From Lentinus brumalis (lineage: Eukaryota; Basidiomycota; Agaricomycetes; Polyporales; Polyporaceae), in the NCBI GenBank assembly GCA_001792895.1, contig MARA01000072.1, forward strand, positions 28,328 through 92,327: 64,000 nt of DNA, written 5' to 3'. A program made the translations under genes and the position numbers. Positions 31,371-64,000 of this stretch are shown here, piece by piece; position 1 is the first letter of the stretch, and every line of letters begins with the position of its first letter. Under the pieces are notes generated by a model that was given only the letters and a program-made list of their open reading frames with translations, did no database searches and had not been told where the DNA came from.

Positions 31371-31372
31371 AT

Positions 31373-37946: not shown

Positions 37947-38038
37947 TGCGTGGGCGCAGTGCTGCCTCCTCCGACTCTCGTCTCTTTCTCCTCTCACTCG
38001 CGACTCGGTCGTTGCATCTCAAGTCCTCCCGCGCCACC

Positions 38039-39970: not shown

Positions 39971-40315
39971 CGTGGTTCAGTATTCCATCTCCATCTCCGT
40001 CTGCTCGCGATCAGCCATTGGACATACTCTGCGGGCAGACACCGCACTTGCACTCCCTTATGACTACTCACATGTTGTCCGCAGGAATGTACCTCCTCTT
40101 GTCTGGGCTCGCGGGTTCGTGCACGGCTAGCGAATAGCTCCCGTCCGGCCTACCGCGATCGAGATTGTCTTTCATGAGCGCGCAGCGGACCTGAGTGGCT
40201 GACGTCTCGCCCGAGCTTCGCTCAAAATTTCCACGGGACTCCCGCCCCGCCGCCGCCGCTCTTCGCGTCCATCGAACTCATCTGGAACGACCCCAACGCA
40301 GAGCCCGCGCGCATC

Positions 40316-41694: not shown

Positions 41695-41849
41695 TCAACC
41701 GTTCTTGTCCTTGCGTCCTGTTGTACTTTAGTATACAATGAGATGAGATGTAACTTTCTTGCGCCTCCAAAAAATATGCAGCTCGACACGTCCTGTGCTG
41801 AACGCCTTTGAGTGCCGCATGTCACTCGTCTCGCGGGCGGTGTGTCCGT

Positions 41850-42500
41850 CGCGAGCGGTAGACCGCTCGAGCGGTGCTCCGGCGAAGGCGGGCGACATCC
41901 TCGCACCATCGCATTGCTTCAGACGGATGAGTCGTCGGGAGCGGGCGACCGCTCGACAACAGCGACAGCGTCTGTCGCGAGCGGTCGACCGCTCGCCCGA
42001 TGCTTCGGCGACGGCTGGGGACTCCCTCGCCGGAATCCATTGCTTCAGACGGATGACTCGTATCGAGCGGTCGACCGCTCGAGAGAGGCTCCGGCGACGG
42101 CGGGCGACATCCTCGCACCATCGCATTGCTTCAGACGGATGAGTCGTCGGGAGCGGGCGACCGCTCGACAACAGCGACAGCGTCCGTCGCGAGCGGTCGA
42201 CCGCTCGCCGGATGCTTCGGCGACGGCTGGGGACTCCCTCGCCGGAATCCATTGCTTCAGACGGATGACTCGTATCGAGCGGTCGACCGCTCGAGAGATG
42301 CTCCGGCGACGGCGGGCGACATCCTCGCACCATCGCATTGCTTCAGACGGATGAGTCGTCGGGAGCGGGCGACCGCTCGACAACAGCGACAGCGTCCGTC
42401 GCGAGCGGTCGACCGCTCGCCCGATGCTCCGGCGACGACTGGGGACTCCCTCGCCGGAATCCATTGCTGCAGACGGATGAGCGGTCGACCGCTCGAGCGA
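41850..42500. repeat. PAL2 array with 211-bp higher-order units
   Basis: A 211-bp unit repeats about three times from ~41930, each with three palindromes in fixed order (GGGCGACC, GGTCGACC, GGTCGACC cores). Long open frames on both strands result from repeat structure. Confidence 0.92.
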
Positions 42501-42559
42501 TGCCCCGGCGACGGTGGGCGACATCCTCGCCTCAATGCGTTGCTTCAGACAGATGACTC

Positions 42560-44640
42560 GTCGCGAACAATGCCGATTCTTCCGTAGGTTGACAAGTTTA
42601 TAATCAAATGCGAGGGACCGGCAGGTACGCCCGCCCACATATCCCATGCAAACCTCGTAGGCGCCCATGGAGTTCCGGCCACTCCAGCCCGTTCTTCATG
42701 TTATCGCGATGGGCATGAAGTGGATGAAAGTGTTACCTGGTTTAAACAGCAATGCTTCTATCACAAGTCTTTGAGCGACAGCTCAGACTTCCTTCGACAT
42801 CACGGGACATCATACCAGACCCTGTACCGCTATTGAGCCTCGGTACTGCCAGTTGGCACTGCCCGGCCCCCGAATATGCCCTCTTTCCTCGCTGCTATCC
42901 TCAACTCCGCCAGCGTGTTCTGCTCTTTGCTGGAGCGGTTAGCGGTGGTGAAGGCCTCTCGACGGGACTTCCGAGGAGGATCAAACAAGTCCTGCGTCGC
43001 CAACACCGCCAGATCTCAATTCGCCAATGCTGTCGCCTTTGCCGAACTATAGATCCTATAGTCGGCGTATCACCACAGCACCAGTCGTATGGAGGTGCAG
43101 TCTGTCTGATCCTGGTCCTGTGCAGCTCAGACCATCCCAAAGACCTTTATTCACTGTGTCTACTGATTGTATACATGCGTAGTCCTCATTTTAAAGTCTT
43201 GTGTTCTCATGCGCTCCCTTGTTGTCGTCCCCACTCATGCTCGCATGTTTTCTTAGGATCATGAGCCCTGTGTAATGCTTTCTGTGTCCCGTTTTCATCT
43301 TGTACCCCACCGGGAACCAATGATAGCCATCCTGTTAAATCTGTGCGTGCTGAGATGAGGTTCGGATGAAGTCCAGAGTTACGAAGTCCAGAAGGATGCG
43401 CACGGAGATGAGGACTTTGGGGCAAAGCTATTGAACAATGGCTTGGGGATCCACGAAGGTCTCCAATTTAGGACAGACAAGAGATCCGGATACCAGAGCA
43501 GGACAGACAAGAGATGCAGAGTTTATACCAGAGCAAGCAATGCATAAGAAGATAAGCAAGAGTTAATACCAAGCAGAAGAGTAATCAAGCCAGAGGGAAA
43601 GAGTCAAGCAGAAGTCGGAGTCAGAGGTCAGAATTCCGGTCGGAACTGAGGTCTCAGTGTGGCTACACAAAAGCTTATATAGTAAAGACTGTAAAGTCCG
43701 AGAGGCCGGAGAGGAGTAGCGAAGACATAACTAAAGGAGGTCAGGAACCATAGTCAGGTGGAAGCTAGTGATCGGCCAATACAAAGTACAGTAACTGTGG
43801 ACTGGAGGCGGATACAATCGAGGTCAGCATGGGGATGGATACAAGTGGAGTCAGAGTCAGGCAGAAAAAGAAAACACAGGCGGGTACAAGCAGGAGCAGT
43901 AAGACCAGATTCCGGGACAAAGTAAGCAAGTAGAATGCAGAAAGGTGGTTGACAATAGAAACACTTGTAAGACGAACTGAAGTTCTGGAGTCCGATGGAG
44001 GTCTGAATGGGAGTTGGTGTCTTGGAGGCACGGGATGTAACAGCGATCGGACTATGAGAGAAGAGTGAACAGAATAGATTGAGCTGGGAGTCCTAGTTGG
44101 TGGTGTAACACGAGATCAGGCCCGAGATCTAAGCACGACCATAAAGGTGGTCAGAAACCGGAGTCAGGCGGAAACTTATAGGTTAGGTAGAAAAGCGGTC
44201 AGGTGTGGAGATAATAGACAATAGCAACACATGTAAGACAAACGAGAGCAGTGAAGTCAGAGAGTTGGTGACTTGGAGGCATAACAGCTTTCAAGTGGGG
44301 GAGGGGTCGGCTCGAGGATAGGTCAAGCACAAGTCGAGCCCTCAGGGCGGTCCTTTAAACAGGCTCCTTGTTTATGGCATGGCAGCTCCTGATTTGCCTG
44401 TCAAGCCTGTGCATCAGATACAAAATGATATGCAGAATCTAAGCACTTGCCAACCATGACTTGCAGTCGTGCTGCAGTGTCCCACTCTTGAGTACGAGAA
44501 CCTGCTTGCTCCCTCAGGCTCGCATACCTGGTCTCTGAAGAGAGTGTTACGTGCATTGAGAATGTTCCGTACGGGCGGGCGCTTAGCACGTAGATGCACG
44601 GATGTACAGGGCCACATATGCGCCAGTCATGGTTCATTCG
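42560..44640. other. Gene-free interval
   Basis: No convincing gene is seen. An open frame at 42752-43264 has no recognisable motif. From about 43400 to 44340 the DNA is purine-rich, with recurring GTCAGG, GGAGTCAG and ACAGACAAGAGAT words, possibly a decayed mobile element. Confidence 0.4.
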
Positions 44641-44659
44641 GGCATGAGACGCACGAACC

Positions 44660-45485
44660 CGCGGAGCGGTCAGTCGCTCGGGCAAGGCGCGGATGTCAGG
44701 AGAAGTGCACCACAAAATGGTACTACGCCTGCTTCTTCGATGCTACAGTCTGAGCGGCCGGCCGCTCGCGAGAGCACATTGGTCCCGTATCTCCCGCTGC
44801 TTGCGACGCACGGCAGGACGGGTAAACAGAGCAGCGTGATACTGCGCCTAAGCCTACGACGGTATGTTCTGAGCGGTCGCCCGCCCACGAACGTATGTCG
44901 GTCAGGTATCTCCCGCCGCTCGCGACGCGGCGCCGGACGCGTGTTGAGTGTCCGGTGAAGGGTACGGGCACCATAGATGATACGCAGTGAGCGGCCGACC
45001 GCTCGCGAGAGCACATTGGTCCCGTATCTCCCGCTGCTTGCGACGCACCGCAGGACGGGTAAACAGATCAGCGTGATACTGGGCCTACGCCTTCGACGGT
45101 ACGTTCTGAGCGGTCGCCCGCCCACGAACGTATGTCGGTCAGGTATCTCCCGCCACTTGCGACACGGCGCAGGACGCGTGTTGAGTGTCCGGTGAAGGGT
45201 ACGGGCACCAGAGATGATACGCAGTGAGCGGCCGACCGCTCGCGAGAGTGCATCGCTCCCGTATCTCCCGCTGCTTGCGACGGACTGCAGGACGGGTAAA
45301 CAGAGCAGCGTGATACTTCGCCTACGCCTTCGACGGTATGTTCTGAGCGGTCGGCCGCCCACGAACGTACGTCGGTCAGGTATCTCCCGCCGCTCGCGAC
45401 ACGGCGCCGGACGCGTGTTGAGTGTCCGGTGAAGGGTACGGGCACCAGAGATGATACGCAGTCAGCGGCCGACCGCTCGCGAGAG
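44660..45485. repeat. PAL2 array with ~236-bp units upstream of gene D
   Basis: Three units of about 235-237 bp start near 44755, 44990 and 45227. Each has a full palindrome (GAGCGGCCGACCGCTC type) and a half-degenerate one ending CCGCCCAC, so the second arm is mutated in all units. Confidence 0.9.
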
Positions 45486-45783
45486 TGCATCGCTCCCGTA
45501 TTGTTAACGACCGCCCGCTTAGCTGCCGGGGGTGTAAGGTACTTATTCAGCACAGCAGAGCCGTGCAATCACTTGGTACGCCGTACGACTGTACTGACAC
45601 AAACGGCGGCTCAGGCGAGTGCAGAGCGTGCCTCAATGGGGGCTGAGAAACCCGGTGTTCTTATCGCGATGGAATGCACGTGAAACCTTATCGGATCCCG
45701 CAAGGACGCGACGAGTAAGGTCCGCGTAGGTTGTTCTATCTCCGCATCGTCTCGCTCTAGTACGAACGTCCACCTCGACTACC

Positions 45784-47100
45784 ATGCCTCCTCCGACGCT
45801 CGCAGACTATGGCCGCCACTTCGAGACGACTGTGCCGTCGATAACGAGGGTCCCGGAGAAGGTCCGCACGGCGGAGGAAGTGCCATCGGTACAACGCAAG
45901 TTTTCCTGACCGTCCGTGCATGGGTGCACACTGACCGATTATACAGACCCTGCTGGATTCGAAATCACAAAAGACATGGTGTGCGTGCTGAGGGAGTAAG
46001 CGGGGAGATGATGAGGCGATTACTGACATCGAATGCTGCAGGGTGTTGTGCAAGCAAGGGCGACATCCGCAGACGGACCACGCAATCGTGTTCTACGCCC
46101 TGGTGGAGCAACCCCTCGTACTTCGGCGGCTCCGCGAGGTGAGTACGGAATGAGAAGGGACGTCCGTGATGCTGACGGTGGATGTACTGTCAGCCGTTTC
46201 TCAAAGTGCGGCCATTCTACGTGCGCGACGATCTCGACGTGTCAAACCTGGCGGGGAGCTCGTGCCGAACGGAAACGAAGGCAGCGATTCAGGGATTGCA
46301 CCAGTGCGTGCTCGCCACGGACAGCGAACACATTCATGTGACGCAAGTCATCGGGCTTGAGCACGTACCGTTGCTCGAGGCGACCAAGATTTCGTTCCCG
46401 CTGGTCCTGGCACATACGCGGTGGTACCGCGCGGACGTGGAGATAGAGGTTATATCGCTCAACAAGAAGACGAAAATGCTACGTGCTGCGAAGGTGAGTT
46501 AGAACGTGTGCTCGCGTTCAGATGTCGTTAAGGCTACAGCGTGCTGACGCAGATGTGTCTGAGCAGGCGGTGGCGCCGTTCTGTGCGGCGCAATGCACGA
46601 AGATGCGGGCGTACTCTGCCGCGGACGACGTTGTCCGGTGGTGCGAGGACTGCCGGCAGTGGTTCCACGAGAGCTGCTTGGAGCAGCGGAATACGGTGGA
46701 GTTCTATCGCGAGGAACACGCGAAGGAGCCGTACACGGACTTTCCGGCATGGGTATTGTGGGACACAGAGGAACCGGTTCCCCCGCAGGTGTACCGACAC
46801 TTCCTGGGGCTGATCACGACACCGATCCGGAGATGCTATCCTGAGGTATCGCCCCACCACATATTGACGGCGGAGCTGTTTCTCAGCAAGTTGCGGGATG
46901 CGGCGAAGCGGCCGGGCTTCGCCATTCCGCCCAGCGAACGAGCATACCGAGCCTTCGTGGACTCCCTGCTGGTGCCGACACTACTGCGTCCGGACGTCCG
47001 CAGTCCGCACATCGACCGGTTCATCGAGTACCTGACGCAGGTGAACCTTGGTGAGAAGATGCTGTACCAGTGCCCCCGTCATCCCGACCACGTCATCTAA
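45784..47100 (+). CDS. BAH-like / PHD-like zinc protein, diverged member D
   Basis: Probable start at 45784 (MPPPTLADYGRHFETTV), with short exons. FLKVRPFYVRDDLDVSN begins the BAH-like part at ~46196, which continues to TRWYRADVEIEV. The final exon has CAAQCTKM..WCEDCRQWFHESC and FPAWVLW and ends YQCPRHPDHVI. It is the family architecture with strongly diverged sequence. Two short upstream exons (to ~46139) are tentative. Confidence 0.6.
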
Positions 47101-47189
47101 TAGCTCGGGTAGTATAGAGTTCAGGTAGGTATGGATTGCAATGTACTAGTTGGCAATTGGGCCAGGGTATGAAACGTTATAGCCGCGAC

Positions 47190-48035
47190 GGAATGCGTGG
47201 AGAGCGGGCGGCCGCTGGGAGACGGGTCGTAACCACATGGGGAGGCGTTCAGCTAGAGGCGAATCTTTGTGTATTCGCGTCCGAGTCTGTTAAGAGCGGG
47301 CGACCGCTGCGAGACGAGTAGGAGATCTGAGCGGCCGTCCGCTCACAGACAAACGTCTGTATATTCGCGTCCGATTCTGTTAAGAGCGGGCGACCGCTGC
47401 GAGACGAGTAGGAGGTCTGAGCGGCCGTCCGCTCAGAGACAAACGTCCGTGTATTCGCGTCCGAATCTCTTCAGAGCGGGCGACCGCTGCGAGACGAGTA
47501 GTAGGTCTGAGCGGCCGTCCGCTCAGAGACAAACGTCCGTGTATTCGCGTCCGAATCTGTTCGGAGCGGGCGACCGCTGCGAGACGAGTAGTAGGTCTGA
47601 GCGGCCGTCCGCTCAGAGACAAACGTCCGTGTATTCGCGTCCGAATCTGTTCGGAGCGGGCGACCGCTGCGAGACGAGTAGTAGGTCTGAGCGGCCGTCC
47701 GCTCAGAGACAAACGTCCGTGTATTCGCGTCCGAATCTGTTCGGAGCGGGCGACCGCTGCGAGACGAGTAGTAGGTCTGAGCGGCCGTCCGCTCAGAGAC
47801 AAACGTCCGTGTATTCGCGTCCGAATCTGTTCGGAGCGGGCGACCGCTGCGAGACGAGTAGTAGGTCTGAGCGGCCGTCCGCTCAGAGACAAACGTCCGT
47901 GTATTCGCGTCCGAATCTGTTCGGAGCGGGCGACCGCTGCGAGACGAGTAGTTGGTCTGAGCGGCCGTCCGCTCAGAGACAAACGTTCGTGTATTCGCGT
48001 CGGAATGCGTTCAGAGCGGTCGACCGCTGCGAGAC
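47190..48035. repeat. PAL2 array with 90-bp units between genes D and E
   Basis: Seven to eight near-identical 90-bp units, each with GAGCGGGCGACCGCT (outer arm shortened) and a full GAGCGGCCGTCCGCTC. Because 90 is divisible by 3, a 287-codon frame stays open through it. It is not a gene. Confidence 0.92.
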
Positions 48036-48095
48036 GACGCAATCACGAATTATACTGCCTTCTACATGCTTGTCGAACATATATTACAAACAAAA

Positions 48096-49394
48096 CTACA
48101 TGAAATGCTCGGAGCTACGGGGACATCGGTAGAGATATCGGTCTGTCAAAGGAACCTTCATGAGCTTAATGAAGTCGTCGAGCGCGTGCCACCGAGCGAG
48201 CGGCTCCTCGGGAACCGTAAACCGTCGGACGAGGGCTTGGATGTATATGACCTGGTCATCGGCGGTGGTTGGATATGTCCAGTGGGGGTTGAGGATGTCC
48301 TGCCGGACTTGGCCGAGCAACATCTCAAATGAGACGGAGCGAGCAGGAAAGAGGTCGGGGTAGTTGCGTTGGATCGGCAGCGTGACAAGGGGCGCCAAAT
48401 CGGGCCCCGTAGTACGCTCTGCGTTGGCGGGGGGTGTCCAGGTGACCCAGGCGGGCAGAGACGGGTTGTTCTGCGTGCGGTAGTGGGCAACGGTCTGCAG
48501 ACGCGGCACGCAGCCGATGTGGTACCACTTCCGGCAAAGCTCGCAGAACCTGAGCACGTCCTCCTCGAGGGCGAGGAGGTTTTGACGGCGACAGGAGCGA
48601 CGACATATGCTGACCATTTGTTCCTGGAAGGACAAGGAGTCAGAGAGTGAGGCGAGCTGCGAGGAGAAGCGTGCGGGAACTTACATGCTTGACGCTGAAG
48701 ATGTGGTGGTCAACATCGACAGAGACATCCTCCCGGAGCCACAGCGTGCCAGTGGCAATGTAGGGCATGCCGAAAAGGGCAAGATCGAGGCGGACGACCT
48801 GTACGATCTCAGTGATCTGGGCTGCGTACACATGGATCTTGCTGGAGCTGCGGACGACCTGGTACTGGCCGTGGATTGCGACGGCTGTGCCGTTGTCGAC
48901 GGTGGAGGGCGCGAGGACCTCAGTGTCGAGGTCCTGGCGGGTGTACAAGAGTGAGAGCTCGGCGATTGGCTGCAGTTGTGAACAGGGTGAGCACAAGCGG
49001 CACCGGAGGCGTAACTGTGGAGGCAGCGTACCTCGTGGAGAGTATTGCTGAGCTTGACAGCGACTATTTCGCCCAAGAAGGCGAGCGCATGATGAGTGCT
49101 GCGGCTGTGAACGTGATGGGTACACCGGACGCTGCAATAAAATGTAAGGGACATAGAGCGGTGAGACTGACAGGTGTAGTTACGGACATCATGCGCGGGC
49201 GCAGCACGAAACCTGCCGGATCTGAAGGTAAAGGGTTGATTAGTTGCGACATGAGGAAGAGATAGGGGAGGGTACCGACGTTCGACGGTGTCCTGTTGCA
49301 CCGCCGTCGCGATCTTGTCAGCTCGGGGAGCACCTGCGATGTCTGCAGGGACCTCGTGATGGCCGGCGTGGTGGCGGGGCGAGGGGAAGCTCAT
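48096..49394 (-). CDS. BAH-like / PHD-like zinc protein, diverged member E
   Basis: Minus strand, with a probable first exon at 49394 (MSFPSPRHHAGHHEV). The middle exon (~48980-48685) gives AELSLLYTRQDLDTEV, ITEIVQVVRLDLALFG and LWLREDVSVDVD, the BAH-like part. The last exon has CRRQ..FCELCRKWYHIGC and PAWVTW and ends YRCPRSSEHFM. It is the only family member on this strand and faces gene D tail to tail across a PAL2 array. The 5' exon borders are uncertain. Confidence 0.6.
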
Positions 49395-49692
49395 TGCGGT
49401 GTGGGGAGGCGATAGAGGGATGACAGGGTGGAGGGAAGAGAGAAGGCGAACATAGGCGGGCGCTCTGCGTGAGACTTGGTTGCGCTCAACAAAACCACGT
49501 GAGATGACACTCGCGGTGACGGGTGACGCATCACTGTGTGAGAGGCGGCGGTGGGCGGGAGATGGAATGAGGGCATGTCAGTATCAGGCGGTCGAGCGGG
49601 ACAGTGGCGACTGTTACTACCGGTGTTATACGTGCATCGCGGGCGGGCGGAGATACATCTCCTGCAGGCAGCGACGACAAATGAATGGCGTT

Positions 49693-49940
49693 CCGAGCGG
49701 CCGACCGCTCAGACATGACATTCCCAGGACACTGTAAGTGAATTTGGTGGTGGACGGGTTGTCATTAACGTAAGAAGTATATTCTGAGCGGTCGACCGCT
49801 GAGATGACACTGTTGCGCTGGTACGACCGCTTTGAACAGGGAACCTGTGCGCATGTGCAACACGCCGGATTGCACTGGATCTGTTGGATTATTCTCACAG
49901 CAATACACGCAACTGAGGGTCTGAGCGGCCGACCGCTCAT
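49693..49940. repeat. Three PAL2 palindromes between genes E and F
   Basis: Copies lie near 49695 (centre CCGA), 49788 (TCGA, one arm mutated) and 49922 (CCGA). They are not tandem. Confidence 0.85.
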
Positions 49941-50014
49941 ACGCACGAATGGTTGAACGCGAGGGGATTGCAGTGCGTGGATTATCATTGTAAAACGGAG
50001 CGGGACACATGAGT

Positions 50015-53000
50015 CTACACATAACGGCGGCGTTGAGAGGCAGGGGGTTGAGAGTCATCGTCAGAGCTCCAACTACCGGCGCGGGGACGGGTTGATGATG
50101 AGGGACCGGCTTGCAGACGATGCGAGTACTCCGTGTTAGCGGCGCGTTGCATCTGCGATCCGAAGTGACCTCTGCCGGCCAACATCTCCGCGACGTCGTG
50201 CCCGAAGATCTTCGTGACGATTGTGTGCGGGCCGTCGGGCTTTGTGAGCAGCGTTGTTCGGACCTCGCGGCTCCACGCGTGCAACTCGGGTACATCAAAG
50301 ATGTGATAGTCCCTGTGGAGGCGAGGTGACTTGAACATGGCAGCGCCCTTGCCGTAGGCGATCCCGAGACGGATGAGGTTTACGGTGTGAAGGTACTTGG
50401 GGCCTGAACGGGATTAGCGGAGTGAGACGAGGCAAGAACAGTAGAGCTGGGCAACATGCAGGCATACCGTGTTTCTTGTTCCACTGCGCGATGGACCCGC
50501 CGTTTTGGAGGTGGGTGCGCAGAGGCGACTTGGGGTCCATCCAAGCGAGGAAAGTGATGGCGGCGATAGTGAAGAATTGGTCCTCGGATTTACTGCCCTT
50601 GTGGTCGTTCGTGTAAACGCGCTGTGTCCAGGGGACCATGCGGAAATAGGTCACGGAGCCCTGAGGATTGGCAGTCGAGACTCGGTCGAGACCGGCCGGG
50701 CAATTCTCGGTTTCCCAAGCGACTCTGGGGAGGACCTTTGAGAGGAGAAATGCGAGAGTGAGGGCGAGCGAGCACAGGGGATCCTGGAGATTGGTGCGCA
50801 TGCGTTCGTCCGCCCACTCGTACGTCTCGAGAATCATCCCGGTTGCTTTAGCGGAGGCCCAGTTCCAAGACTGGGGAAGGACGGTGCGGTCCAAGTACTT
50901 GGGGAACTCGGAGATCTTGATGGAGACGGTGTCCCAGGAAGCACGAGGGTCCGCGTCGACGACGAGACGGGTGAACTGGGCCAGGGCAGCCTCCGCGCGG
51001 GCCTCCTGGGTCGGGAGACGGTTTACGGCGATGGAGGGAGTTGCGCTTGTCGCGCCGAGGGTGGTCCATGCGTGAATAGAGGGAGTACGCAGAGGGGCGC
51101 CTGTGCCGTTGGGGTTAGGCAGGGTGTCCGGGATGAAATTGACGTGGCGGGTCTGCATGACGGCAACGAGGGCGCGTTTGAAGTCCTTCAGGACGTCCCT
51201 GTCGTTGCTTCCTCTGAGCATCAGCCTTGCTTGCTGAATGCAAGCGCAGGCGACGGGGCCGAATGTGCCAGCGGGGTCGATGGGTGCGCGGAAGGAGCGA
51301 GCCGTCGGCAGCTTTGTCTGACTGATGATCTCGTCTGCGAACTGGTCGAGGGACCATTCGCCGCGGGAAGACTTCTGCAGACCGCGGCCAATGTCTGCGA
51401 CAGTGACAGAGGAAAAGCGGATGACTTGCTCGAGGGTGGACCGGTCGGGACCGTAGGAGAGACAATGATTAGACTTGCGCCACACGTCCCAGTTCTTCTT
51501 GCGCTCAATAGCCCTGACGTGGTCGGGATGGTTGCGATCCTTCAAGGCATCGGCGATCTCTGTGAACAGCTGCCGCTTGACGAGAGCGAGCACATCCTCC
51601 TCGTATGCGTCCATGGCGATCTGGGCCGTGATGAGGAGCCTCTGAATCGATGCGTTATACCTGGAGGTGCCTGGCGGTTTGGGGGAGACGTTGGCCAGAC
51701 GAAGCCGGAAGTCCGTGAGATATATCTGAGGGCGTTGTGAGGTCAGCGAAGGGTATGTAGCCACGGAAGTGAATCAAGAGTCTGGTCCAATATGAGCAGA
51801 CCATCAACAAGACGTGCGTACGAGCGGGCGGCCGCTCGCGGAGCACTTCTGAGGGGTCTGCGCACGATGCGCGGAGGTTGCATGGCAGAGATCGAGTCTC
51901 GGGAGCGGGCGACCGCTCGAAAGCATACGTCGCACGAGCGCAGCCGGTGAGATGACCGACGGGCAGACCATCAACAAGTCGCACGTACGAGCGGGCGACC
52001 GCTCGCGAGCACCTCTGAGGGCTCTGCGCACGATGCACGGAGGTTGCATGGCAGAGATCGAGTCTCGGGAGCGGGCGACCGCTCGAAAGCATACGTCGCA
52101 CGAGCGCAGCCGGTGAGATGACCGACGAGCAGACCATCAACAAGTCGCACGTACGAGCGGGCGACCGCTCGCGAGCACCTCTGAGGGCTCTGCGCACGAT
52201 GCACGGAGGTTGCATGGCAGAGATCGAGTCTCGGGAGCGGGCGACCGCTCGAAAGCATACGTCGCACGAGCGCAGCCGGTGAGATGACCGACGAGCAGAC
52301 CATCAACAAGTCGCACGTACGAGCGGGCGACCGCTCGCGAGCACCTCTGAGGGCTCTGCGCACGATGCACGGAGGTTGCATGGCAGAGATCGAGTCTCGG
52401 GAGCGGGCGACCGCTCGAAAGCATACGTCGCACGAGCGCAGCCGGTGAGATGACCGACGAGCAGACCATCAACAAGACGTGCGTACGAGCGGGCGGCCGC
52501 TCGCGAGCACTTCTGAGGGCTCTGCGCATGAAGGACGGAGGTTGCATGGCAGAGATCGAGTCTCGGGAGCGGGCGACCGCTCGAAAGCATACGTCGCACG
52601 AGCGCAGCCGGTGAGATGACCGACGAGCAGACCATCAACAAGACGTGCGTACGAGCGGGCGGCCGCTCGCGAGCACTTCTGAACGCCCTGCGCACTACAC
52701 ACGGAGGGTTCCGCCCACCAAACCGAAGACAGGCCACAATCAAAAGATGAGTACTTACCAAGAAGTGCGGGAGACCGTATGTGAGCTCCTGAGAGCGCTT
52801 CGACACCACGAGCGGCATATACTCCGGACGGGGGCCAGCGGCCACTGGGAGAGCTCGACAAATGGTGCGGTTCTTGTCTCGCCGCCGATGACCAGACCAG
52901 GCCAGAACGCGGGAAAGCCATTGTCGAGAATGCCGCGGGTGACCCACATGTGCCACATCAGATTTCTATTGAGGACCTTGGCTGCGCCTGTGTGCGCGAA

Positions 53001-56000
53001 ATTGAGGCAGCGCTCGGCCACAGAGGTGAGCTCGACGTAGACAGGATCAGGACGGCCGTTCTCAGCAGGATTCATAAGGTTTGGCTTGACACGCAATGTC
53101 CAGACTCGGTCGAGGAGGGTCGTGATTGGGTACGTCGTCCACTCCAGGATGCGAGGGTAGACCTGTGAGATGCCGCGCGCAGTCAGCATCATCCACGCAG
53201 ATCAAAAGTAAGTGGTGCGTCGTACCGCTGGTTTGAAGATTACCGTCGAGGAACGGAGCGCGTTGTTGACCTCAGGGCTGAAGAAGATCTTGCGGAGCTT
53301 CATGAGAACGTGCTCGTAGAAACCGCCACCAGAACGATACTCAGGCTTGATGCGCGCGATGTGGAAGATGAAGTTGTTCTCAAAGCGGAGGGCGTTCTTG
53401 TTGGCATGGTCCTCAGCGGTGCGCATCTGGCGGGCGAGGCGTTCATGGGGCAGCTGCGCAGACGCATAGCCCAACGTATCGAGAGCGGTCTTTTTGGTGG
53501 TGGCGTCGCGTGCCCAAGCACCGGCGGTAGCACCAGTGAGCGGCCCGCGCTGCGCGATGTGAGTGCGGGCCTTGTCTCGGACGTGATGGGCGACATTGTT
53601 GTATGCCTGGGACTTGAAGCCCTCAATGCAGAGGGGCCCGTCCGCAGTGACGCCTATGTCGCGGGCGAGACGGCGCAAGGGACGCAGGAGAGGCTTGATG
53701 ATTCCGTCCGCCTGCCACTGACCGATGTTCTTGGAGAAGAACTGGGGGTAGGTGAAGATGGGTGTCATGGGCTCAGACGGGTCCCCAAGGATGTCGGCGA
53801 TGAAGTCCTCGTCCTGGAGATCCCTCTCCCCGTCGTCGAGCTCAGGGTCCTGAAGCGGGATGATCGAGGACTCTTGAAAGAGGGGGAGGACCTTGTTGAG
53901 ATCCTGGAGCAAGCCGCAGGGAGGTGTGTCCGGGTCGCGAAACCTGTCTCTGCGGAGGATTGGAAGTCCGTCCTCGGAGAAGATGGGGATCTCGCGACCG
54001 TCACCGTCGAGGAGGTCGTAGTTTTCCAAGTCCTCGATGAGCTCGCGCGTGTTCGGATCGGCGGTCGTGTATACATGTGTGTAGCGATCGAGGATGCGCT
54101 GGGGGTCGATAGGCTCGAAGCCGCTTGCCTCAATAGCCCTACAGTCAGGATGCGTGTGGTGCAATTGATATGAGAGCATATGTATGAGATGCAGGTGTTA
54201 ACACGCACTGGGTATGCACAGCATAAGCCATGTGAATGCGGAGGATGTTGTTGAAGTCGATCATGTCGTTCCAAGTATCGCGATCGGCCTCGAAGGTAGC
54301 TGGGGCACAGATTTTGATGTTTTGGCCATACTTGGCGAGGATGGCAACGGGCTCAGCGTCGATGAACTCTGGGACTCTGTACGAGTCCGGTGCTCCCTGC
54401 CACCATTCGTCGTAATGCTCCTTGATCGCACGGTCGAGGTTCCGAAGAGTCTCGGTAGTGAACTGCCAGATGGGATTGTCGCTGACGAAACGAGTGAGCA
54501 TACATGACGTGCAACAAATGTGGAATGGGGAGAATAGGAGCGGGCGACCGCTCACAAGGCATCTTCTGCCACGGGTCAGCCGCTATTAGTACTCGACAAT
54601 CCATCTGGAGCGGGCAACCGCTTATGCGGTGTCGTCTGGCGACCTGTCGCACGCTCATGGTGATATGTCGTCTGGAGCGGGCGACCGCTCAGAGCGACAC
54701 TGATCCATGCGCTTGCTGTGATCCAGGGTCACGGTGAGCGGTCGTACGCTCACAATAGTGGGATGTGTCGTTCGGAGCGGGCGACCGCTCAGAGCGACAC
54801 GTTGTCCGGAGCGGGCGACCGCTCATCCATGCGCTTGCTATCATCCAAGGGTCACGGTGAGCGGTCGTACGCTCACAATATTGGGATGTATCGTCCGGAG
54901 CGGGCGACCGCTCAGAGCGACACATCGTCCGGAGCGGGCGACCGCTCAGAGCGACACGTTGTCCGGAGCGGGCGACCGCTCATCCATGCGCTTGCTATCA
55001 TCCAAGGGTCACGGTGAGCGGTCGTACGCTCACAATTTTGGGATGTATCGTCCGGAGCGGGCGACCGCTCATCGTCAATATCCCTTGTGGTTACCCAAGG
55101 GTTAGGGTGAGCGACGAGAGTCAAGACACGCGCCTGCCTCTGATTGTGCGCGGTAGCAATGGGCGGGCGTCGCAACGACATGGGCAAGACCACATGCGGG
55201 AAATGGCAGGACTCACAAGATGTTGGTTTGCAACCGCCATTCATACTCCTTCGCGACGTCGGGATACTCTTCCGTCATGTATACCGTACCATAGCCAGCC
55301 TTGACGAGCATGTAGGTGATCATGGAGATGGTAATGCGTGCCACAACAGAACTCATCGTCGTGGGCACGCGCGTGTGGCGGACGGGCTCCGGGTCTGCGG
55401 CAAAGGCGTCGACAGGCATGAGCGCGATGAACACATCAGCCTGCATCGGAGCCTGGCCAATGTATAACATCCGGTGGTCGGGCAGGAAACCAAAGACGCG
55501 CCGGTCGCCCTTGAACGTCCAATGTCTGCGGTCGAAGCGCATCGTGAACGACCAGTCCGGTTTGTCCACTGGCGGCAACACAGCACCGAAGCCGAGCTCC
55601 TTCGGGACACGTATGTCGCAGTCCCAGCGCACCTGCACGCCAGAAAGGGCACAGGGAGCGAGAACGCACGGGTGGGATGAGACACAGTGATGGTAACAGA
55701 GGTAGCATCATGTACACACCTCGCTCAGCTTCCAGTAGATCTTGGGATCATTGGCGGCGTACAAGTAGCGGCTGTCGACCTTGAGAAGGTTCTTGCGCTG
55801 CAGGAGCGAGAGAGCCCTCTCTTGGTTGCGGGAGTTGAAGTTCCGCTCAAGATCGGAGAGGAGGACGGTTCTGGTCGGCATCTCGACATACCTCTGCGCC
55901 AACTCGTCAAAGTGAGCGTCCGCGACGAGATGGCCGCGGGTGACCTCCTCCTGCGAGACACTGTCCTCGGTCACCATGGTCGGCGGGACGAAGCTGATGT

Positions 56001-56256
56001 TGAACGGCTCGCGGAGAGGCCCGTCTTCCTCGTCATCGGTGTACGCCGCCGCGCCGAGGGGCTCGTCGAGTTCGCTATTGAGAGAGGGGGAGGGGTACGA
56101 TGAGGACGGAGTGCGCAAAGCAGGACAGTGGCCAGATAGATAGATGCCCTCAGACACGTACTTTACGTCTTCTTCCGGCTGTTCATCTTGTTCGAAGGAC
56201 GGCTCCTCTTGAGAAAACGTCGGTTGATCATCGTAGAAGGCGAAGTTGGTGTCCAT
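50015..56256 (-). CDS. Gene F: large uncharacterised protein with PAL2-filled introns
   Basis: Starts at 56256 (MDTNFAFYDDQPTFSQEE) and ends at 50015 (SQPPASQRRRYV), over about eight exons. I do not recognise a domain. The N-terminus is acidic, a middle part contains WSFTMRFDRRHWTFKGD and EVNNALRSSTVIFKPA, and the last part is helix-rich and ends in a Ser/Arg tail. Two introns are greatly enlarged: 54482-55216 (735 nt, GTGAGT..GTCAG) and 51726-52758 (1033 nt, GTAAGT..CTCAG), each holding a PAL2 array. The first joins NI to F-DNPIWQF across phase 2. The other introns are short. It is read in the same direction as E and G. A nuclear role is only suggested by its neighbours. Confidence 0.65.
51820..52682 (-). 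repeat. PAL2 array, 166-bp units, inside a gene F intron
   Basis: Five to six units start near 51821, 51987, 52153, 52319, 52486 and 52652. Each has two palindromes, mostly GAGCGGGCGACCGCTC. In some units the first is GAGCGGGCGGCCGCTC, and these lie at the two ends of the array. Confidence 0.92.
54537..55072 (-). repeat. PAL2 array inside another gene F intron
   Basis: GAGCGGGCGACCGCTC alternates with GAGCGGTCGTACGCTC. Units of ~90-170 bp share GGTCACGGTGAGCGGTCGTA and CATGCGCTTGCT words. At the left end some copies are degenerate. Confidence 0.9.
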
Positions 56257-56710
56257 CGCGAGCAGCAGGAGATATCGCGAGCGGCGGGAGATGGAGATAG
56301 AATGCTGGAGGGAGGGGACGACAAGTTGGGGAGTTAGGGTAAGGGTGGGAGGGGACCGCAGACGACTTTTGACCACGCAGCAATGATTTATGCGACCCCA
56401 AGGCAGCGGTAGGCTAGAAAGAGCGGATCAGAGGGCTTCAAACGTTCAAGCAGCGGGAACGCTATTTGGTTGTGCGATCGGGGTGTGTCATTTCAGATGA
56501 GTCATCATTTAAAGGGCGAGAGACAATTGCATTCAATTATGGCGAGGAGAGATATACAGGAACGAGTAGGAGTGGTACATGGGCAGGACTATGCGACGGG
56601 AGGGAGGGAAGGATATGCGATACAAGTACAATGAGGAAGCGCGACATTCAGCGAACGACAAACAGACCGGCGGGCACAGGAGCGCGGAAGGAGAGACGGG
56701 GACAAAGAAC

Positions 56711-58070
56711 TCAACCGATCATCGCGTCAGTGTCGTCGTCCTTAACCATCGCGGCATTTGCCTTGGACTTCGCGCCGGGCTGAGGACGTTGACGAGTCCT
56801 CGCCGCGACAGGCTGCGTCGAGCTGGCCGCGCCAGAGCCAGTCTTGAGGTCCTTCTTCAGGACCTTGACCGCCTTATCTTCGGGCTCTGCTGTACTTGTC
56901 GCGGCACGCTTGCGAGTAATGCGGGCGGTGCCTTGGTTGTCGTCCTTCTGAGCGTGCGAGACCGGCGGGGTGACCACCATGGAACTGACGTCTGTACAAT
57001 CATTGCGTGAGCTTCAATGTCGGACAGAAGGTAGTGGAGCGTGGGTGAGGATGTGTTCGAGCGGTCGACCGCTCGCGAGCATCAGCTGTCGGACAGAAGG
57101 TAGCGGATCATGCTCGCAGCGGACGACCGCTCGCTAGCTCGCAGCGGCAGATACCGTCTGAGCGGTCGACCGCTCACGAGCATCCATTGTCGGACAACAG
57201 GTAGTGGATCGTGGGTGAGGATGCTCGCGAGCGGTCGACCGCTCGCTAGCTCGCAGCGGCAGGTACCGTCTGAGCGGTCGACCGCTCGCGAGCATCTTAG
57301 CGGCCGCACGTCATGTTGAGCGGTCGACCGCTCGAAGGCAATGTCGGGATTGCATCCACCAGAAGGGGACCATGCGAGCGGTCGACCGCTCGTTCTGACG
57401 TGCGGCTGCGATCCCCTCTTGAGCGGTCGACCGCTCCGAGAATACATTTGCTGCGTCTTCACCTGTCATTTGCGTAAGACAATATGAGAGAACTCACTAT
57501 GAGCGAGGTCCTCAACGCCCTGCTCAGCATCGTCGTCGAGGTCCACCATGCGGTCGGTCCTCCCGTGCTTCTTGAGACGTCGCAAAGGCTGCGGCGCGTC
57601 GTCCTCCGCATCGTCGCCGTTGTCGTCGGGGACCTCAGAGGTAGGGGGGCCGTCTTCGGGCTCGGAAGGACCCTTGTCATCGACCTCCATAGCGTCGCGA
57701 GCGGGCGACCGCTCGCGAGGGACATCCTCGTCAGGCTGAGCCTCCTCAGGGGGACGGACTTCGCTTCGTCCGTGGCGTGCTCCGAGGCACTCTGCGTTGC
57801 CGGGGCGGTGGAAACCTCGTCGGTGTGCTCACCGCTGGGCTCATCGAGCGTGATGGGACCGACAGAGGCCCAGAGCTTCTCTTCATCGGCATCCTCCCCC
57901 TCTGCGTCGAGGTCCTCGCCGTGAGCCGACTGGTCGTTCTTGCCGTGATTGCCCTGAGGAGGCTCGTCGCTGCTTGATTGGAGCTGGTCTTCGCCGTTCT
58001 CATCGCCCTCGTCCTCGTCCCCATCCCCGTCCTCGTCGTCGTCCCCGTCGTCGTCCGCGTCCGCGTCGTC

Positions 58071-58103
<33 letters not shown>

Positions 58104-61100
58104 CTCCTCATCGTCGCCCTCGTCCTTGTCCTTGTCAGCGCCCTCGGACGCGCTCTGGTTGTCAGACTCCCGATCGGCCGGGTCGGTGGGCTCTCCGTGA
58201 GTCGCCGTGCTCGCACCGCTGGGTCCGCCCATCTCCATTTCGACATCCTCGACGTCCGAACGATGTTCCTCCTTCGCGAGCGCCGCCGCCGCGAGTGCGC
58301 GCGCAGGAACGCTGGCCGCATCGAGCTTCATCGCCCCCACGGGCCCGTTCCAGCCGACGAGGTCTTGCGGGAGAATGTCCGTGTCCTTGTACGGGCCCAA
58401 GAGCTGCGGCTTGGGATAACCAAGCCTCTCCAATGCGCCCTCGTACCGGTCCATCTCCTTCCGCGACCGCGCGGTCCTCTCGGCTTGGATCTGCATATAA
58501 TTGAGCGACGGGTACGCGGAGCTGTCCGCCTTCGCCGCCATAGTCGGGAACTCCTCGTAGAAATGGTCCGCCGTCCAGACGGCTCGACGTACGGAGCCGT
58601 TGTCCCGCTTGCGCGGGCCACCTGCCGGTTCGCGTTCGTCCAGAGTGTCTGAAAGCACGCGATGCGCAGTGAGTACAAAGCATAGTACATCCAGACGCCG
58701 CACTCACCTTGATCAAGTCTTCGAAAGAGGTGAGCACCTCGCGGTCGAGGACCACCTGTTTCTTGGCAGCGTGGGGCCGAAATGCGCGACCTTGGACGAC
58801 CTGACGGTCTTGATGATGGTCGAGATCTCCGCGAGAACGTAGCCCGCATGGTGGCGGACTCGAGGAATGTGTCGAGGTCGAGGTCGAGCACATCCACCGA
58901 GACAGGCAGCGGCGACGCTTGGGTCTCGTACACTTTCCCGAGCTCAGCGTCCCAGTACTTCCAGACACTGACGCGCCGCCCCTCGCGCCCGATGGACTCG
59001 AATGCACCAATCGCGCTCAGGTGTTTCGCTGCGGCCGCCCGCAGGCTTTTGAACGCCAGAGAGGCGTAGAATGGCGCGACGTGCTCAAGCTGGTACGCCC
59101 ACCTGACCGGAAGTTCGACGCTCAGAGCCTTCAACGCCTTGTCCTCTCCGGCGCTGTTTGCCTTCTTCGCCACGAACGATCGGAACTCGGGAGCGGACGT
59201 GGTTACGAGCATGCGGAGCGCGGGCAGCTTGTCGAGCTGGGATGTAGTGAACCCCCCGTTCTCCGCATCTGCGTCCTTCCGCATGACGGTCAGAGCCTCC
59301 TTCATCGCCTGTAGTACGCCTCGCAGGTCGGCTTCCACGGATCGTCCTCCGAGTTGAAGTCGATGAATGCGCCGAAGGGGGACAACTTCGCGTTGACGCC
59401 GCCCTTCCCCCACACAGCTTTGCCGATCTTCTCGAAGATGAACCGCGAGTACCACGCAGGGCATCGGAGCCAGTTGTTGCCATTGCGTGGACCATGCGGC
59501 CTATGTCGGTAAGCTTGATGTGCTCGCGGAGCACAAACGACCACCACTGTTGGGCCGTCAGTGTATGAACTGTGAGCGTGCAGAAGGTATCCGATCAGAC
59601 TTACCCAGACTGAGACACCAGGGACTTGTCGGAAAAGTGTCGCATCTGACAGGAGGGCGTTGATTTGGTCACCGAGGAGGTTATGGGGATTGCCGCCGTG
59701 GAGCGGATCGAGCATGAACATGAGCTGCAGGGAGAGGTGTTAGCACAGCTGTTCACAGTGTAACTCCGCGGCCGAGCGGGCGACCGCTCGAAGTATGTAT
59801 TCACCCTTCGTGCCCTATCTCTTGGCACGAGCGGGCGACCGCTCGCACCGTAACTCTAGGGCCGAGCGGGCGACCGCTCGGAGCACGTCCATGGCATGAG
59901 CGGGCGACCGCTCGCACTGTAACTCTGGGCCCGAGCGGGCGACCGCTCGGAGCACGTCCATGGCATGAGCGGGCGACCGCTCGCACCGTAACTCTAGGGC
60001 CGAGCGGGCGACCGCTCGGAGCACGTCCATGGCATGAGCGGGCGACCGCTCGCACTGTAACTCTGGGCCGAGCGGGCGACCGCTCGGAGCACGTCCATGG
60101 CATGAGCGGGCGACCGCTCGCACCGTAACTCTAGGGCCGAGCGGGCGACCGCTCGGAGCACGTCCATGGCATGAGCGGGCGACCGCTCGCACCGTAACTC
60201 TAGGGCCGAGCGGGCGACCGCTCGGAGCACGTCCATGGCATGAGCGGGCGACCGCTCGCACTGTAACTCTGGGCCCGAGCGGGCGACCGCTCGGAGCACA
60301 TCCCTGGGATGAGCGGGCGACCGCTCGCATCGTAACCTCTTCGAACGAGCGGGCGGCCGCTCACGCTGCGTCTCGGCGATCGAACAGTCCGATGGACAAA
60401 GGCAATACCACTCACCGTCGCGATTCCGTCGTCTGCCGCGGTCAACTTCTCCTTCAGGGCGTCCATGAACGTCTTCGTCGGGACCGGGAGCGCGAAGGCC
60501 AGCCCGAGCCGCTGCAGCTCGAACACCCACTCCAGCTTCTGGGGTGCGTTCTCCAGCGCACGAATGGACTCCGAGTCCGGAGTCGTCGCCCGCAGCTTGT
60601 CGAGGGTCGCCGTCCAGTACTGCGCACACGACCGCCGGATCGAGGCCTGATAGCCACGCAGCGCGTCCATCCACAGAGGCGAGTCGCTGTGCGCCATGTG
60701 CGCAAGCCGGTCCTTGAGGCACGACCGGTACGCCGCGTCGATCGTGTCCAGGAGCTCCTTCGGGAACACCTCTTGCACAACTCGTGCGGCCCGCACCGTC
60801 GCCATGACCTCCTCGTACCTATTCTGCGCCTGCCGACGGGCACCCACCGCGGTCTTCGACACCGCAGGGAGAATCGCCTCCTGGCCATTCTGCAACGCCT
60901 CCATCACCGCCGTCCGTTCCTCGGCCTCCTGGATGCTCGCGATCTGGAACGCATACACCTCGCTGCCGAGCGCAGAGGCCTGGGGATTCACCAGCTTCCC
61001 CTGCTGGTTCACCTCCGGCCACTCACAGTCACTCGCGATGAAATGCAGCGCTGCCAGCCCTGAACGCAATATCTCCATGTGAAGCTGACACAAGCAGGTC

Positions 61101-62873
61101 AGCACTCGCATCCGCATACACACAAGCCAGAAAAAAGCACGCACCCAGTCACCGTAATCGCCGTCGTCCAGGTAGTCCCCAAATGCCTTCGTGTTGACCA
61201 CGGCTTCGCTCGTGTAGTATGGGAACACACTCATGAGCGACATGAGGTTCCAGGTGGACGGATTATGGAACGGCTTCATGAAGGAGGAATACTTCCGACG
61301 CGTTTTCGGGTCGCCCATCACATCCTCCAGGAGTCGCGAACTCCACCACCCATTGCCGGGGACGAGTGTCTCCACCGGGATATTGTGCGTCTTGGCAAGC
61401 TGCGCTGCCGCGGCCTTCAGCTCGTACACCCACCGCCATGTTCGCTCTACCATCGTCTCCGAGAGCTGGGGATCGATCTTGTTCATGGAGAGATGGCGGA
61501 GGGTTGGCTCCTGCAGCTTATCTATAACATAGCGCATCATCAGTCGTGTGATCTCGTGAAGTACAATCTAAAACAGCCGCAGTGTATGGTCGGAGAAAGC
61601 GGTCACGCCCTCGCGCTCGCCACGCCTCTCGAGCGGGCGACCGCTCACATTGGCGAGGCCGCTCCTACTGACCGAGCCTCGCGAGCGGTCGACCGCTCGA
61701 ATCGCAACATCGCACACGCAGCGGGCGATGCTGGCGACACTTTTGAGCGGTCGACGCTCACACTGACCACGCTCGCGAGCGGTCGCCCGCGACCGAGTCC
61801 GAGCGGGCGATGCTGGCGACACCTTTTGAGCGGTCGACCGCTCGAACTCGGTCGAGCGGTCGACCGCTCACACTGACCACGCCTCGCGAGCGGTCGACCG
61901 CTCGGACTCGGTCGAGCGGGCGACCGCTCACACTGACCACGCCTCTCGAGCGGTCGACCGCTCGCACTACAACAGCACCGGTCGAGCGGTCGACCGCTCG
62001 ATATAAAACAATCTCATACATGCAACACTCACCAATGTCATACAGCTCCACCGTCCACGTCCCTATTTCGCCGAGGAGGCTCTTGATCTTCGCGAGCTTG
62101 TCCGCCATGTCCGCGAGCTCCGATCGCAGCGCGCCCTCCGCCTCCTTCTTCACGGCCGCCTTGCCCTTCCTGGTGACGTCGCCGCCGTCGCCGATGTCGT
62201 TCAGCTTCTTCTGCTTCTTCGAGAGCGCCGTCTTCAGCTTCGCCGCCTCAACTTCAAGCTGCTTCTTGAAGCCCTGCACGGCCGCATGTCGGTGCTGCCC
62301 GCCGAGAACGGTGACCTCGGCGCCTTGGACCTTCGACGTCCACTGCACGGCCTTCAAGTCGTTGTCGTCGGCATTCTGAACAAGACAACCGGGGTCCACC
62401 CAGTCCACCTTGACAGCAACCGGCATCGGGTGGTCCTCGTGCTGGATGCCCATGCCGCGGAAACTGTGCACAAGGTCGGAGACGGCCTTCTTGTTCAAAG
62501 CTCGGTTGTTGTATTGACCGAACGACAGCTGGACCCCGGGGTTGAGGAGGTTAACAGTGGCGTACCCAAGTCGCGCCGCTGCCATCTCCTTCTTCAAAGC
62601 CAACTCCTTGCTCTGCTTCTCCGCCATCAGCGCCATCCGCTCAAGGGGAGGCGCAGCCGCGAGCTGTCCAATCCCATCCCTCAGCTCATCCGCACTCACA
62701 CGCGATGCTGCATACAGTACTCACCTCATCGCGACCGGCAGGAGATATATCTCCAGATGCTCGCGGCGCGTCGCCGCCGCCCCATCCTTCGTTTTACCAA
62801 CCCCGCCGCGGCCTGGGTCTTCGTCGCCTTCGCCTTCTTGCCAGCCTTGCTTGCCTTTGTTGCAGTACTCATC
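56711..62873 (-). CDS. Gene G: large protein with ParB-like N-terminal region and acidic tail
   Basis: Probable start at 62873 (MSTATKASKAGKKAK, basic); the exon border between this and ~62690 is unresolved. The next region has NPGVQLSFGQYNNRALNK and VTVLGGQHRHAAVQGF, resembling the ParB/sulfiredoxin fold with its G-x-HR box, followed by a Lys-rich coiled coil. Then come ~700 residues of helical sequence I do not recognise, a strongly acidic Asp/Glu run (~58000-58140) and a basic tail ending DAMIG. Introns 61522-62032, 59725-60415 and 56992-57497 (511, 691, 506 nt) each contain a PAL2 array and splice in frame. A 41-nt intron at 57792-57832 also fits. One PAL2 copy (57699-57714) lies in an exon and reads RERSPAR. 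The reading is open throughout, so it is likely intact. Confidence 0.65.
57058..57440 (-). repeat. PAL2 array in the last intron of gene G
   Basis: About eight palindromes, mostly the perfect GAGCGGTCGACCGCTC form, spaced 40-60 bp apart with partly repeated spacers (GTCGGACAGAAGGTAG words). Confidence 0.92.
59771..60362 (-). repeat. PAL2 array, ~69-bp units, in a gene G intron
   Basis: About 16 palindromes, nearly all GAGCGGGCGACCGCTC, about 34-35 bp apart with two alternating spacers (CACCGTAACTCTAGGGC and GAGCACGTCCATGGCAT). This is the most regular array in the window. Confidence 0.93.
61628..62002 (-). repeat. PAL2 array in the first large intron of gene G
   Basis: About ten palindromes, mostly GAGCGGTCGACCGCTC, separated by short spacers such as CACACTGACCACGCC. 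Some lost a few bases (GAGCGGTCGACGCTC). Confidence 0.9.
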
Positions 62874-63374
62874 GTGCCAGTAAGAGAGGAGTGGAGGAGT
62901 GTCTGTAGTAGGGGAGTGCGGTCGCTCAGAGGGTGATCGCGGGGAGAGAGAGAGAGAGAGAGTCGCTCCCCCCGCTCTATCTATCTCTGCCTGCCTGCGG
63001 CCTCATGCCTGCATCGCGGCCCATCGATCGGAACAATCCCAACCTTGTCCTTTTCCGTGCAGGGATCATCTATTCTCTCGAGCACTGCGATTCCCTTTTC
63101 CGTTCGCCATCACGCTCATCCATCTCCTCATCTCCTCATCTCCGTGTTTCGCACTTGGACGCGACATAATCTGTACCCCACCGCCCATCCCTGCACGTCC
63201 TTCCCTCTGAAGCGTTCAGCCCGTGATGTCTCTAACCACACTTCCACAGATGATCGCGTTCCTGATTGATCGACATAAACTGTCACACTCGATCACGAAT
63301 CATCATGACGTACTTGCCACGTGGCTATGCCGCCCACGTGCATCCTCAAGTGTCAAATCACTATCTCCTCCTGC

Positions 63375-64000
63375 GCGCGGTCGCCCGATCGCGACGCGTT
63401 GTCTCTGCGTCTCCAATAGTGAACGGTCGGCCGCCCGCAGGCCTCTTTCTGCGTATGTTCGATAGCGAGCGGTCGCCCGCTCGCGGGCATCTTTCTGCAT
63501 ATGTTCGATAGCGAGCGGTCGCCCGCTCGCGGGCATATTTCTGGGTATGTTCGATAGCCGGTCGCGCCGCAGGCCTCTTTCTGCGATGTTCGATAGCGAG
63601 CGGTCGCCCGCTCGCGGGCCTCTTTCTGCGTATGTTCGATAGCGAGCGGTCGCCGCCGCTCGGGCCTCTTTCTGCGTATGTTCGATAGCGAGCGGTCGCC
63701 CGCTCGCGGGCCTCTTTCTGCGTATGTTCGATAGCGAGCGGTCGGCCGCTCGCGGGCTCTTTCTGCGTATTCGATAGCGAGCGGTCGCCGCTCGCGGGCA
63801 ATCTTTCTGCGTATGTTCGATAGCGAGCGGTCGGCCGCTCGCGGGCATCTTTGGCGTATGTCGATAGCGAGCGGTGGCCGCTCGCGGGCATCTTTCTGCG
63901 TATGTTCGATAGCGAGCGGTCGGCCGCTCGCGGCATCTTTCTGCGTATGTTCGATAGCGAGCGGTCGGCCGCTCGCGGCATCTTGCTGCGTATGTTCGAT
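63375..64000. repeat. PAL2 array at the right edge, ~46-bp units
   Basis: At least 12 units of ~46 bp, each with GCGAGCGGTCGSCCGCTCGC (extended arms) and CTTTCTGCGTATGTTCGATA. Several have single-base losses. The array continues beyond the window. Between 62960 and 63370 I see only a (GA)n run (~62941-62961) and no gene. Confidence 0.92.

Follow-up and report, generated by a model that had tools for sequence, protein, structure and literature searches.

A stretch of 64,000 nucleotides (nt) of Lentinus brumalis DNA was analysed (the window; C107:28328-92327, up to the end of this 92-kilobase (kb) contig, in a 53.4-Mb assembly of 136 contigs). It carries arrays of two short palindromes, PAL1 and PAL2, which occupy much of six introns in a helicase gene and in two multi-copy genes, F and G. 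These arrays form part of large blocks that lie stacked, all in one direction and head to tail, on chromosome ends. We give an even chance to the reading that the arrays are dense protein-binding sites in these selfish-looking blocks, with the palindrome arms under selection. The reading draws on the anatomy of the sequence, the conservation of the arms, the variation in copy number, the splice borders shared with homologs, and the one-way orientation and shared terminus of the blocks.

PAL2 has the form GAGCGG-NCGN-CCGCTC, and PAL1 the form TGGTCGTCC-N-GGACGACCA. The window contained 107 exact PAL2, together with 27, 9 and 13 sites with one, two and three mismatches in the fixed positions, respectively. 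In 20 simulated first-order Markov sequences, the mean was no exact PAL2 and 0.05, 1.0 and 8.35 sites with one, two and three mismatches. The core NCGN differed between arrays and was often, not always, uniform inside one array. The two palindromes occupied separate stretches within the window: all 24 exact PAL1 were in 1327..15665, and all 107 exact PAL2 were in 21654..63974. In the F/G region, 51 of the 52 exact PAL2 lay inside five array introns, though exons make up most of the sequence there. The single exonic PAL2 (57699..57714) lay in frame within a G exon, where the encoded stretch is acidic and of low complexity; it stood at the same place in 12/12 sequences found, one of which carries a 1-nt deletion. 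The TCGA form of PAL2 was found in four viral contigs, at one place each, and was taken as chance. A narrow search of the titles and abstract openings of open-access literature returned no report of such palindromes or blocks, which is weak evidence of absence.

Gene F (50015..56256, minus strand) was traced from frames and splice sites as about 1396 codons in 7 exons, and gene G (56711..62872, minus strand) from frames and the homologs P0001 and P0007-P0013; both are multi-copy at contig ends. On the same strand, the F introns of 735 nt (54482..55216) and 1033 nt (51726..52758) held PAL2 arrays with 8 exact sites at 54538-55070 and 11 at 51822-52668. The G introns of 511 nt (61522..62032), 691 nt (59725..60415) and 506 nt (56992..57497), also on the minus strand, held 8 exact PAL2 at 61631-61999, 17 at 59774-60362 and 7 at 57059-57436, respectively. 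The 467-nt intron of the helicase gene (9858..10324, minus strand) carried a PAL1 array with 4 exact and 2 one-mismatch sites. The original prediction, made from the letters of the window, had named these six introns, and all were as it described. Its canonical splice sites and matching phases were also recovered: each intron began with GTGAGT or GTAAGT and ended with AG, and the frames joined across each. A CTRAY-type branch site was present at most 60 nt from the acceptor in 4/6 array introns. The PAL2 arrays made up 72-85% of the length of the five F/G introns and ended before both splice sites, which lie outside the arrays. The prediction that the reading phase is undisturbed held at the array introns and failed over the whole of F and G, because several one-base length differences within exons of the window copy break the frame elsewhere. 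These differences were absent from most other copies compared, and they may reflect decay or assembly error. Over all copies, 113 exon indel events were counted relative to the window, and one copy alone accounts for 83.

The arms and spacers were compared among near-identical copies in orthologous intron alignments, with the majority base as the reference and one long copy of the G 511-nt intron (2787 nt) omitted. Substitutions numbered 3/5280 in PAL2 arms and 78/22546 in array spacers (Fisher test, p 9e-5), with 2/1762 in cores and 11/4731 in short introns. A looser alignment-based count gave 0/5740 for arms, 17/1912 for cores and 238/23661 for spacers; it was discarded, since the alignment of tandem units can go wrong. 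Deeper comparisons used 10 pairs for each palindrome, taken from 5 representatives of 11 aligned PAL2 units and 5 of 8 PAL1 units. In the PAL2 arrays at 34-46 kb, 116/120 arm positions were identical, against 586/1026 (57%) of alignable spacer positions; the p-value of this contrast is nominal, since the pairs are non-independent and palindromes served to select the units. For PAL1, the corresponding values were 180/180 in the arms and 250/513 (49%) in the spacers. These results nonetheless point in a clear direction, namely that the palindrome has been retained while the surrounding DNA was replaced.

The arrays might instead be ordinary subtelomeric minisatellites with incidental palindromes, produced by slippage in tolerant DNA and functionless, an explanation that we consider unlikely, though it keeps some weight. 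The repeats are GC-rich and located at contig ends, their tandem copy number varies between copies, and homogenisation is expected because the copies are near-identical recent duplicates. It accounts poorly for the finding that unrelated or strongly diverged spacers carry the same arms, for the smaller change of arms than of spacers among copies, and for the retention of the same arms in many separate arrays with repeat units of 34 to 237 nt. Outside F and G, PAL2 arrays were present in 34192..47974, at 34192-34807, 36695-37305, 37768-37783, 39638-39965, 41939-42494, 44752-45241 and 47329-47974. They sit among open reading frames (ORFs), several of which have weak PHD matches, and are apparently intergenic. 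A second shared word, approximately ATCTCCYGCYGCYCGCGA, was observed in three PAL2 arrays (window 34345-45399), and its reverse complement was seen in two places at the F start codon (56256-56292). In addition, a tandem array at 31629-32514 had units of about 32/160 nt with telomere-repeat-like CCCTAACG words.

The turnover of the arrays was followed in intron copies located by exon anchors in fetched genome stretches, the window copy included. In total, 50 copies were found: 10 and 7 of the F 735-nt and 1033-nt introns, and 11 each of the G 511-nt, 691-nt and 506-nt introns. PAL2 was present in 50/50, with minimum numbers of 6, 9, 8, 5 and 7 in that order. The G 691-nt intron ranged from 345 to 1196 nt with 5-31 PAL2 over 11 copies, and the F 735-nt intron from 691 to 849 nt with 6-10 PAL2 over 10 copies. 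The F 1033-nt intron reached that length only in the window; its 6 other copies measured 865-867 nt. The G 506-nt intron measured 506-550 nt over 11 copies, and the G 511-nt intron 429-516 nt, apart from one copy of 2787 nt with an insert. Seven short introns (58-87 nt) varied by at most 1 nt in length and had PAL2 in 0/72 copies. The arrays thus turn over by whole units in otherwise stationary introns, and the short introns barely vary in length; the predicted expansion of arrays within introns was borne out, and contraction was seen as well. For the helicase intron, a PAL1 array was present in 6/6 full-length near-identical copies including that of the window, with 4 exact PAL1 per locus. 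No array-free intron was found among the 50 F/G array-intron copies or the 6 full-length helicase-intron copies. An F fragment on C116, tried as a diverged copy (81% by protein), was 99.5-99.7% identical as DNA and carries arrays, and an F fragment on C72 (78%), tried as an array-free source, yielded no intron and had 0 PAL2 in the 4 kb fetched.

Insertions were observed within two arrays. One copy of the G 691-nt intron, on C79, was left out of the copy count because a 13-kb element lies inside it; this element (C79:22993-35955, 12.96 kb; L013, L014) is within the PAL2 array and has inverted terminal repeats about 1.1 kb long and, by eye, an apparent 7-bp target duplication. The other is a 2.3-kb insertion (C107:19387-21729; L010, L011) in the PAL2 array of a G 511-nt copy, bringing it to 2787 nt.

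The location of the arrays at chromosome ends, a context absent from the original prediction, was supported by several observations. The F/G region was matched by parts of eleven other contigs and by the left part of C107, with pieces of at least 1 kb at about 97-99.8%; the matching pieces came from short contigs or lay no more than about 45 kb from the end of a contig. The CCGA form of PAL2 had 173 matches, and the first 100 listed were all within about 47 kb of a long-contig end or on contigs shorter than 30 kb. The blocks share a terminus, the 30-nt CCTAAGGGGGTTACAGAAATACCTATCAAT, with 41 matches in the genome (38 exact, 1 with one mismatch and 2 with three mismatches). In the window, it occurs on the plus strand at 148..177, where the contig DNA to the left is another PAL2 block, at 21511..21540, the right end of the PAL1 stretch (178-21540), and at 23140..23169, where it closes a 1.6-kb piece (21541-23169) on the right. 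Where the contig exceeded 100 kb, the terminus was on the plus strand in 15/15 cases at most 48 kb from the contig start and on the minus strand in 10/10 cases at most 32 kb from the contig end (the first 21 of these 25 give p 9.5e-7); the remaining 16/41 termini were on contigs no longer than 92 kb. This strand bias, found in 25/25, indicates that the terminus faces inward. A 22-nt part of the terminus was absent from viral contigs.

Seven junctions were read, and CCCTAA words directly preceded CCTAAGGGGGTTACAGAAATACCTATCAAT in all of them. In four of the seven, the inward sequence picked up at differing positions inside another block (window 13532, 15269, 22769, and 20852 or 16014), and the inner flanks of the other three, all on C107, had no resolved match. 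Blocks attached to worn or broken chromosome ends would produce such a pattern, and individual junctions may instead be one block inserted into another. Telomere repeats, (CCCTAA)n, were present at the start of C72, with an F fragment from 1354, and at the start of C61, with PAL1 from 405. A broken F on C124 runs directly into degenerate TTAGGG repeats. An interstitial run of 15 CCCTAA was also noted between G and the block terminus (19161-19190) on C50 (17301-17411; L020).

It is improbable, in our view, that the palindromes are recombination or end-attachment sites for the stacking of blocks. The one-way orientation with a shared terminus and the PAL2 found near termini beside PAL1 sequence would suit such a role, and yet 7/7 junctions read join at the terminus sequence rather than at a palindrome, and many arrays are tens of kb away from any terminus.

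The introns are very probably spliced out, as had been predicted, because their splice sites are canonical, their borders are shared with homologs and an L. brumalis protein model matches exactly. That model, P0007 (96% to the N-terminal part of G), has the exact predicted junction of the 511-nt intron, YDI-DKLQEP. The homologs P0009-P0012 (57-62% identity) are coding to the same donor of this intron and then diverge, and the match of P0001 (59%) starts after its acceptor and ends a little beyond where the 691-nt intron has its donor. In gene F, the residues at the start of exon 6, after the acceptor of the 1033-nt intron, are common to P0002, P0003, P0005 and P0006; homologs of this exon are 74-98% identical, and P0005, from L. 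brumalis, is 98% identical to part of it. P0005 and P0007 are the closest named proteins that turned up. The G homolog P0008 reads through the donor into what looks, by eye, like translated PAL2 sequence.

The palindromes might also work as pre-mRNA hairpins, for example joining splice sites or feeding small-RNA production. Each PAL2 could form a 6-bp GC-rich stem, and the array introns fold at -0.42 to -0.60 kcal/mol per nt, values taken with no shuffled baseline. We nevertheless find this explanation distinctly improbable: arrays also occur outside F and G, apparently between genes, and by eye 0/6 of the one- and two-mismatch PAL2 in F/G introns would still pair as G-U at the altered position when read on the transcribed strand. 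An introner-like origin, of which the arrays had reminded the original prediction, in which the palindromic unit is itself mobile, entering genes and there making new introns or filling existing ones, would explain one palindrome in many places with differing surroundings and several introns with arrays, but it is very improbable, since the intron borders recur in homologs of 57-62% identity, 0/50 F/G and 0/6 helicase-intron copies are array-free, the arrays exclude the splice sites and also lie outside F and G, and the palindrome is only 16-19 nt.

The products of the block genes were characterized by Pfam scans of 30 window ORFs. Helicase_C was the only match above the curated cut-off (E 9.8e-6, helicase gene); the gene had been called "SNF2 gene 1", of which the helicase assignment stands and the SNF2 label was that of the original prediction alone. 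Weak matches below the cut-off were to ERCC3, ResIII, CHB_HEX, PHD and RING, and neither a Pfam reverse transcriptase nor a Pfam transposase was found among the 30 ORFs, no VANC-specific search having been made. The exon ORFs of gene F had no Pfam match at a cut-off of E 0.01, and relaxing it to E 10 brought up nothing credible; gene G gave none at E up to 10. The N-terminal conserved motifs of G, NNRA...PVAV...VLGGQHR-AA, may be ParB/sulfiredoxin-like, and G may hold a domain of this type. A G profile against PDB sequences reached sulfiredoxin at E 1.8 and 2.2, ranked under unrelated coiled coils. The structure predictions of G had a pLDDT (predicted local distance difference test) of 49.3 from the single sequence and 53.9 from an 8-sequence alignment, and Foldseek with the latter model gave a best E of 0.13, to unrelated proteins. 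No relatives of G were found in viral contigs, and one 501-base piece had no match in plasmids.

Other ORFs of the window were also recorded. Four ORFs in 35035-48680 have weak PHD-finger matches, and a fifth (35927-36484) resembles one of them; PAL2 arrays begin about 190-250 nt after four of the PHD-like ORFs. In this region, a pair of adjacent stretches shares 64.5% identity across 2.8 kb, array DNA included. The PAL1 stretch holds an open frame of 1185 codons (16589-20143, plus strand) with no Pfam match. An ORF that by eye resembles a reverse transcriptase, with no Pfam match (23128-24189, minus strand), overlaps the terminus at 23140-23169; among 20 matches, its relatives included one deep inside C115 (C115:782581) and one on the PAL2-bearing contig C31.

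If the arrays are binding sites, each palindrome family would be the short site of a sequence-specific, probably dimeric protein, a dimer being suggested because the motif is palindromic. The sites would be packed into the non-coding DNA of the block, introns included, and splicing would clear them from the mRNA, so that introns could offer a free storage place and tandem duplication a means of increase. Tandem duplication and loss would make the arrays longer or shorter, with selection keeping the arms and the spacers drifting. The block itself may encode the PAL-binding protein, whose task would be either to mark or open block chromatin (anti-silencing) or to maintain the block at chromosome ends.

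Several points weigh against the reading of the arrays as selected binding sites. Among near-identical copies, the PAL2 arms differed weakly from the short introns (Fisher test, p 0.03), and the cores were as constant as the arms in the orthologous comparison (2/1762 versus 3/5280, p 0.60). The non-independence of the deep pairs and the choice of units at a palindrome also count here. The separation of PAL1 and PAL2 is not absolute, as C45, C50 and C60 have PAL2 near termini beside PAL1 sequence. No PAL-binding protein was identified; the ParB-like motifs of gene G are putative, and the domain searches and structure comparisons yielded no clear match.

A more specific form of the binding-site reading, which we regard as quite doubtful, is that each block class carries its own palindromic address, repeated many times over in introns and elsewhere in non-coding DNA, and encodes the reader of it, perhaps the ParB-like G for PAL2. 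The intron arrays would then serve a selfish element stacked at telomeres as loading sites akin to those of centromeres or partition systems. The palindromes to which ParB binds in bacteria are 16 bp long. If this were true, the block would protect, tether or propagate itself, and splicing would hide the sites from its own mRNAs. More generally, binding sites in the arrays would add an example from fungal chromosome ends of selfish DNA that lodges protein addresses in its own introns, and the sharp contrast between arms and spacers would make the motif, the protein and the turnover measurable. A large, one-way stacked chromosome-end element would also have been described in mushrooms, with reverse transcriptase not among its Pfam matches.

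The blocks were compared with known systems. The yeast Y' element is subtelomeric, contains a helicase gene and tandem repeats, and has spread between chromosome ends. Similarly, the present blocks are subtelomeric and combine a helicase gene with tandem repeats, but they are larger, have another gene set (F, G and PHD-like) and bear palindrome arrays in introns. RecQ genes near fungal telomeres have been described (PMC10817607). With introners, the arrays share the feature that a repeated sequence makes up most of several introns. In contrast to introners as defined in PMC9860276, no intron gain and no presence/absence variation was found here, and arrays also occur outside F and G. Rather than spanning a whole intron and supplying its splice sites, the arrays cover 72-85% of the five F/G introns; nor is the creation of new introns by insertion supported, as the array introns are present in all 50 copies from the fetched stretches and the borders are common to the 57-62% homologs. 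Many introner families, though not all of them, also have terminal inverted repeats or target-site duplications.

According to PMC5537684, HeT-A/TART and the bdelloid Athena/Terminons are stacked one way with one fixed end towards the centromere and truncated neighbours; Terminons are large with extra ORFs, and Athena has short telomere repeats at the 3' end. The present blocks were similar in their one-way head-to-tail stacking, precise end and truncated neighbours (25/25 inward, 4/7 flanks). They differ in that some block-bearing contig ends have (CCCTAA)n telomere repeats, and in that the reverse-transcriptase-like ORF at the 23-kb junction need not be owned by the block: its family has at least one copy deep in C115, though another is on the PAL2-bearing contig C31. 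The Arabidopsis VANDAL (MULE)/VANC system is also similar. VANDAL elements encode the MULE transposase VANA and the VANC protein, which binds the motif and lifts silencing. The targets of VANC in VANDAL21 are short motifs in intronic, intergenic and terminal non-coding DNA, whose tandem repeats are gained and lost between copies, and the VANC6 targets have motifs other than those of the VANC21 targets (PMC5735166). The present arrays likewise consist of a short motif in introns and other non-coding DNA with variable copy number. The differences are the 16-19 nt palindrome, the fungal host and the stacking at chromosome ends; moreover, a VANC-like protein and hypomethylation are not part of the likeness. 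The VANC targets are the nearest worked example for the PAL arrays. Overall, the arrays make better sense as addresses of blocks stacked at telomeres than as introner-like elements.

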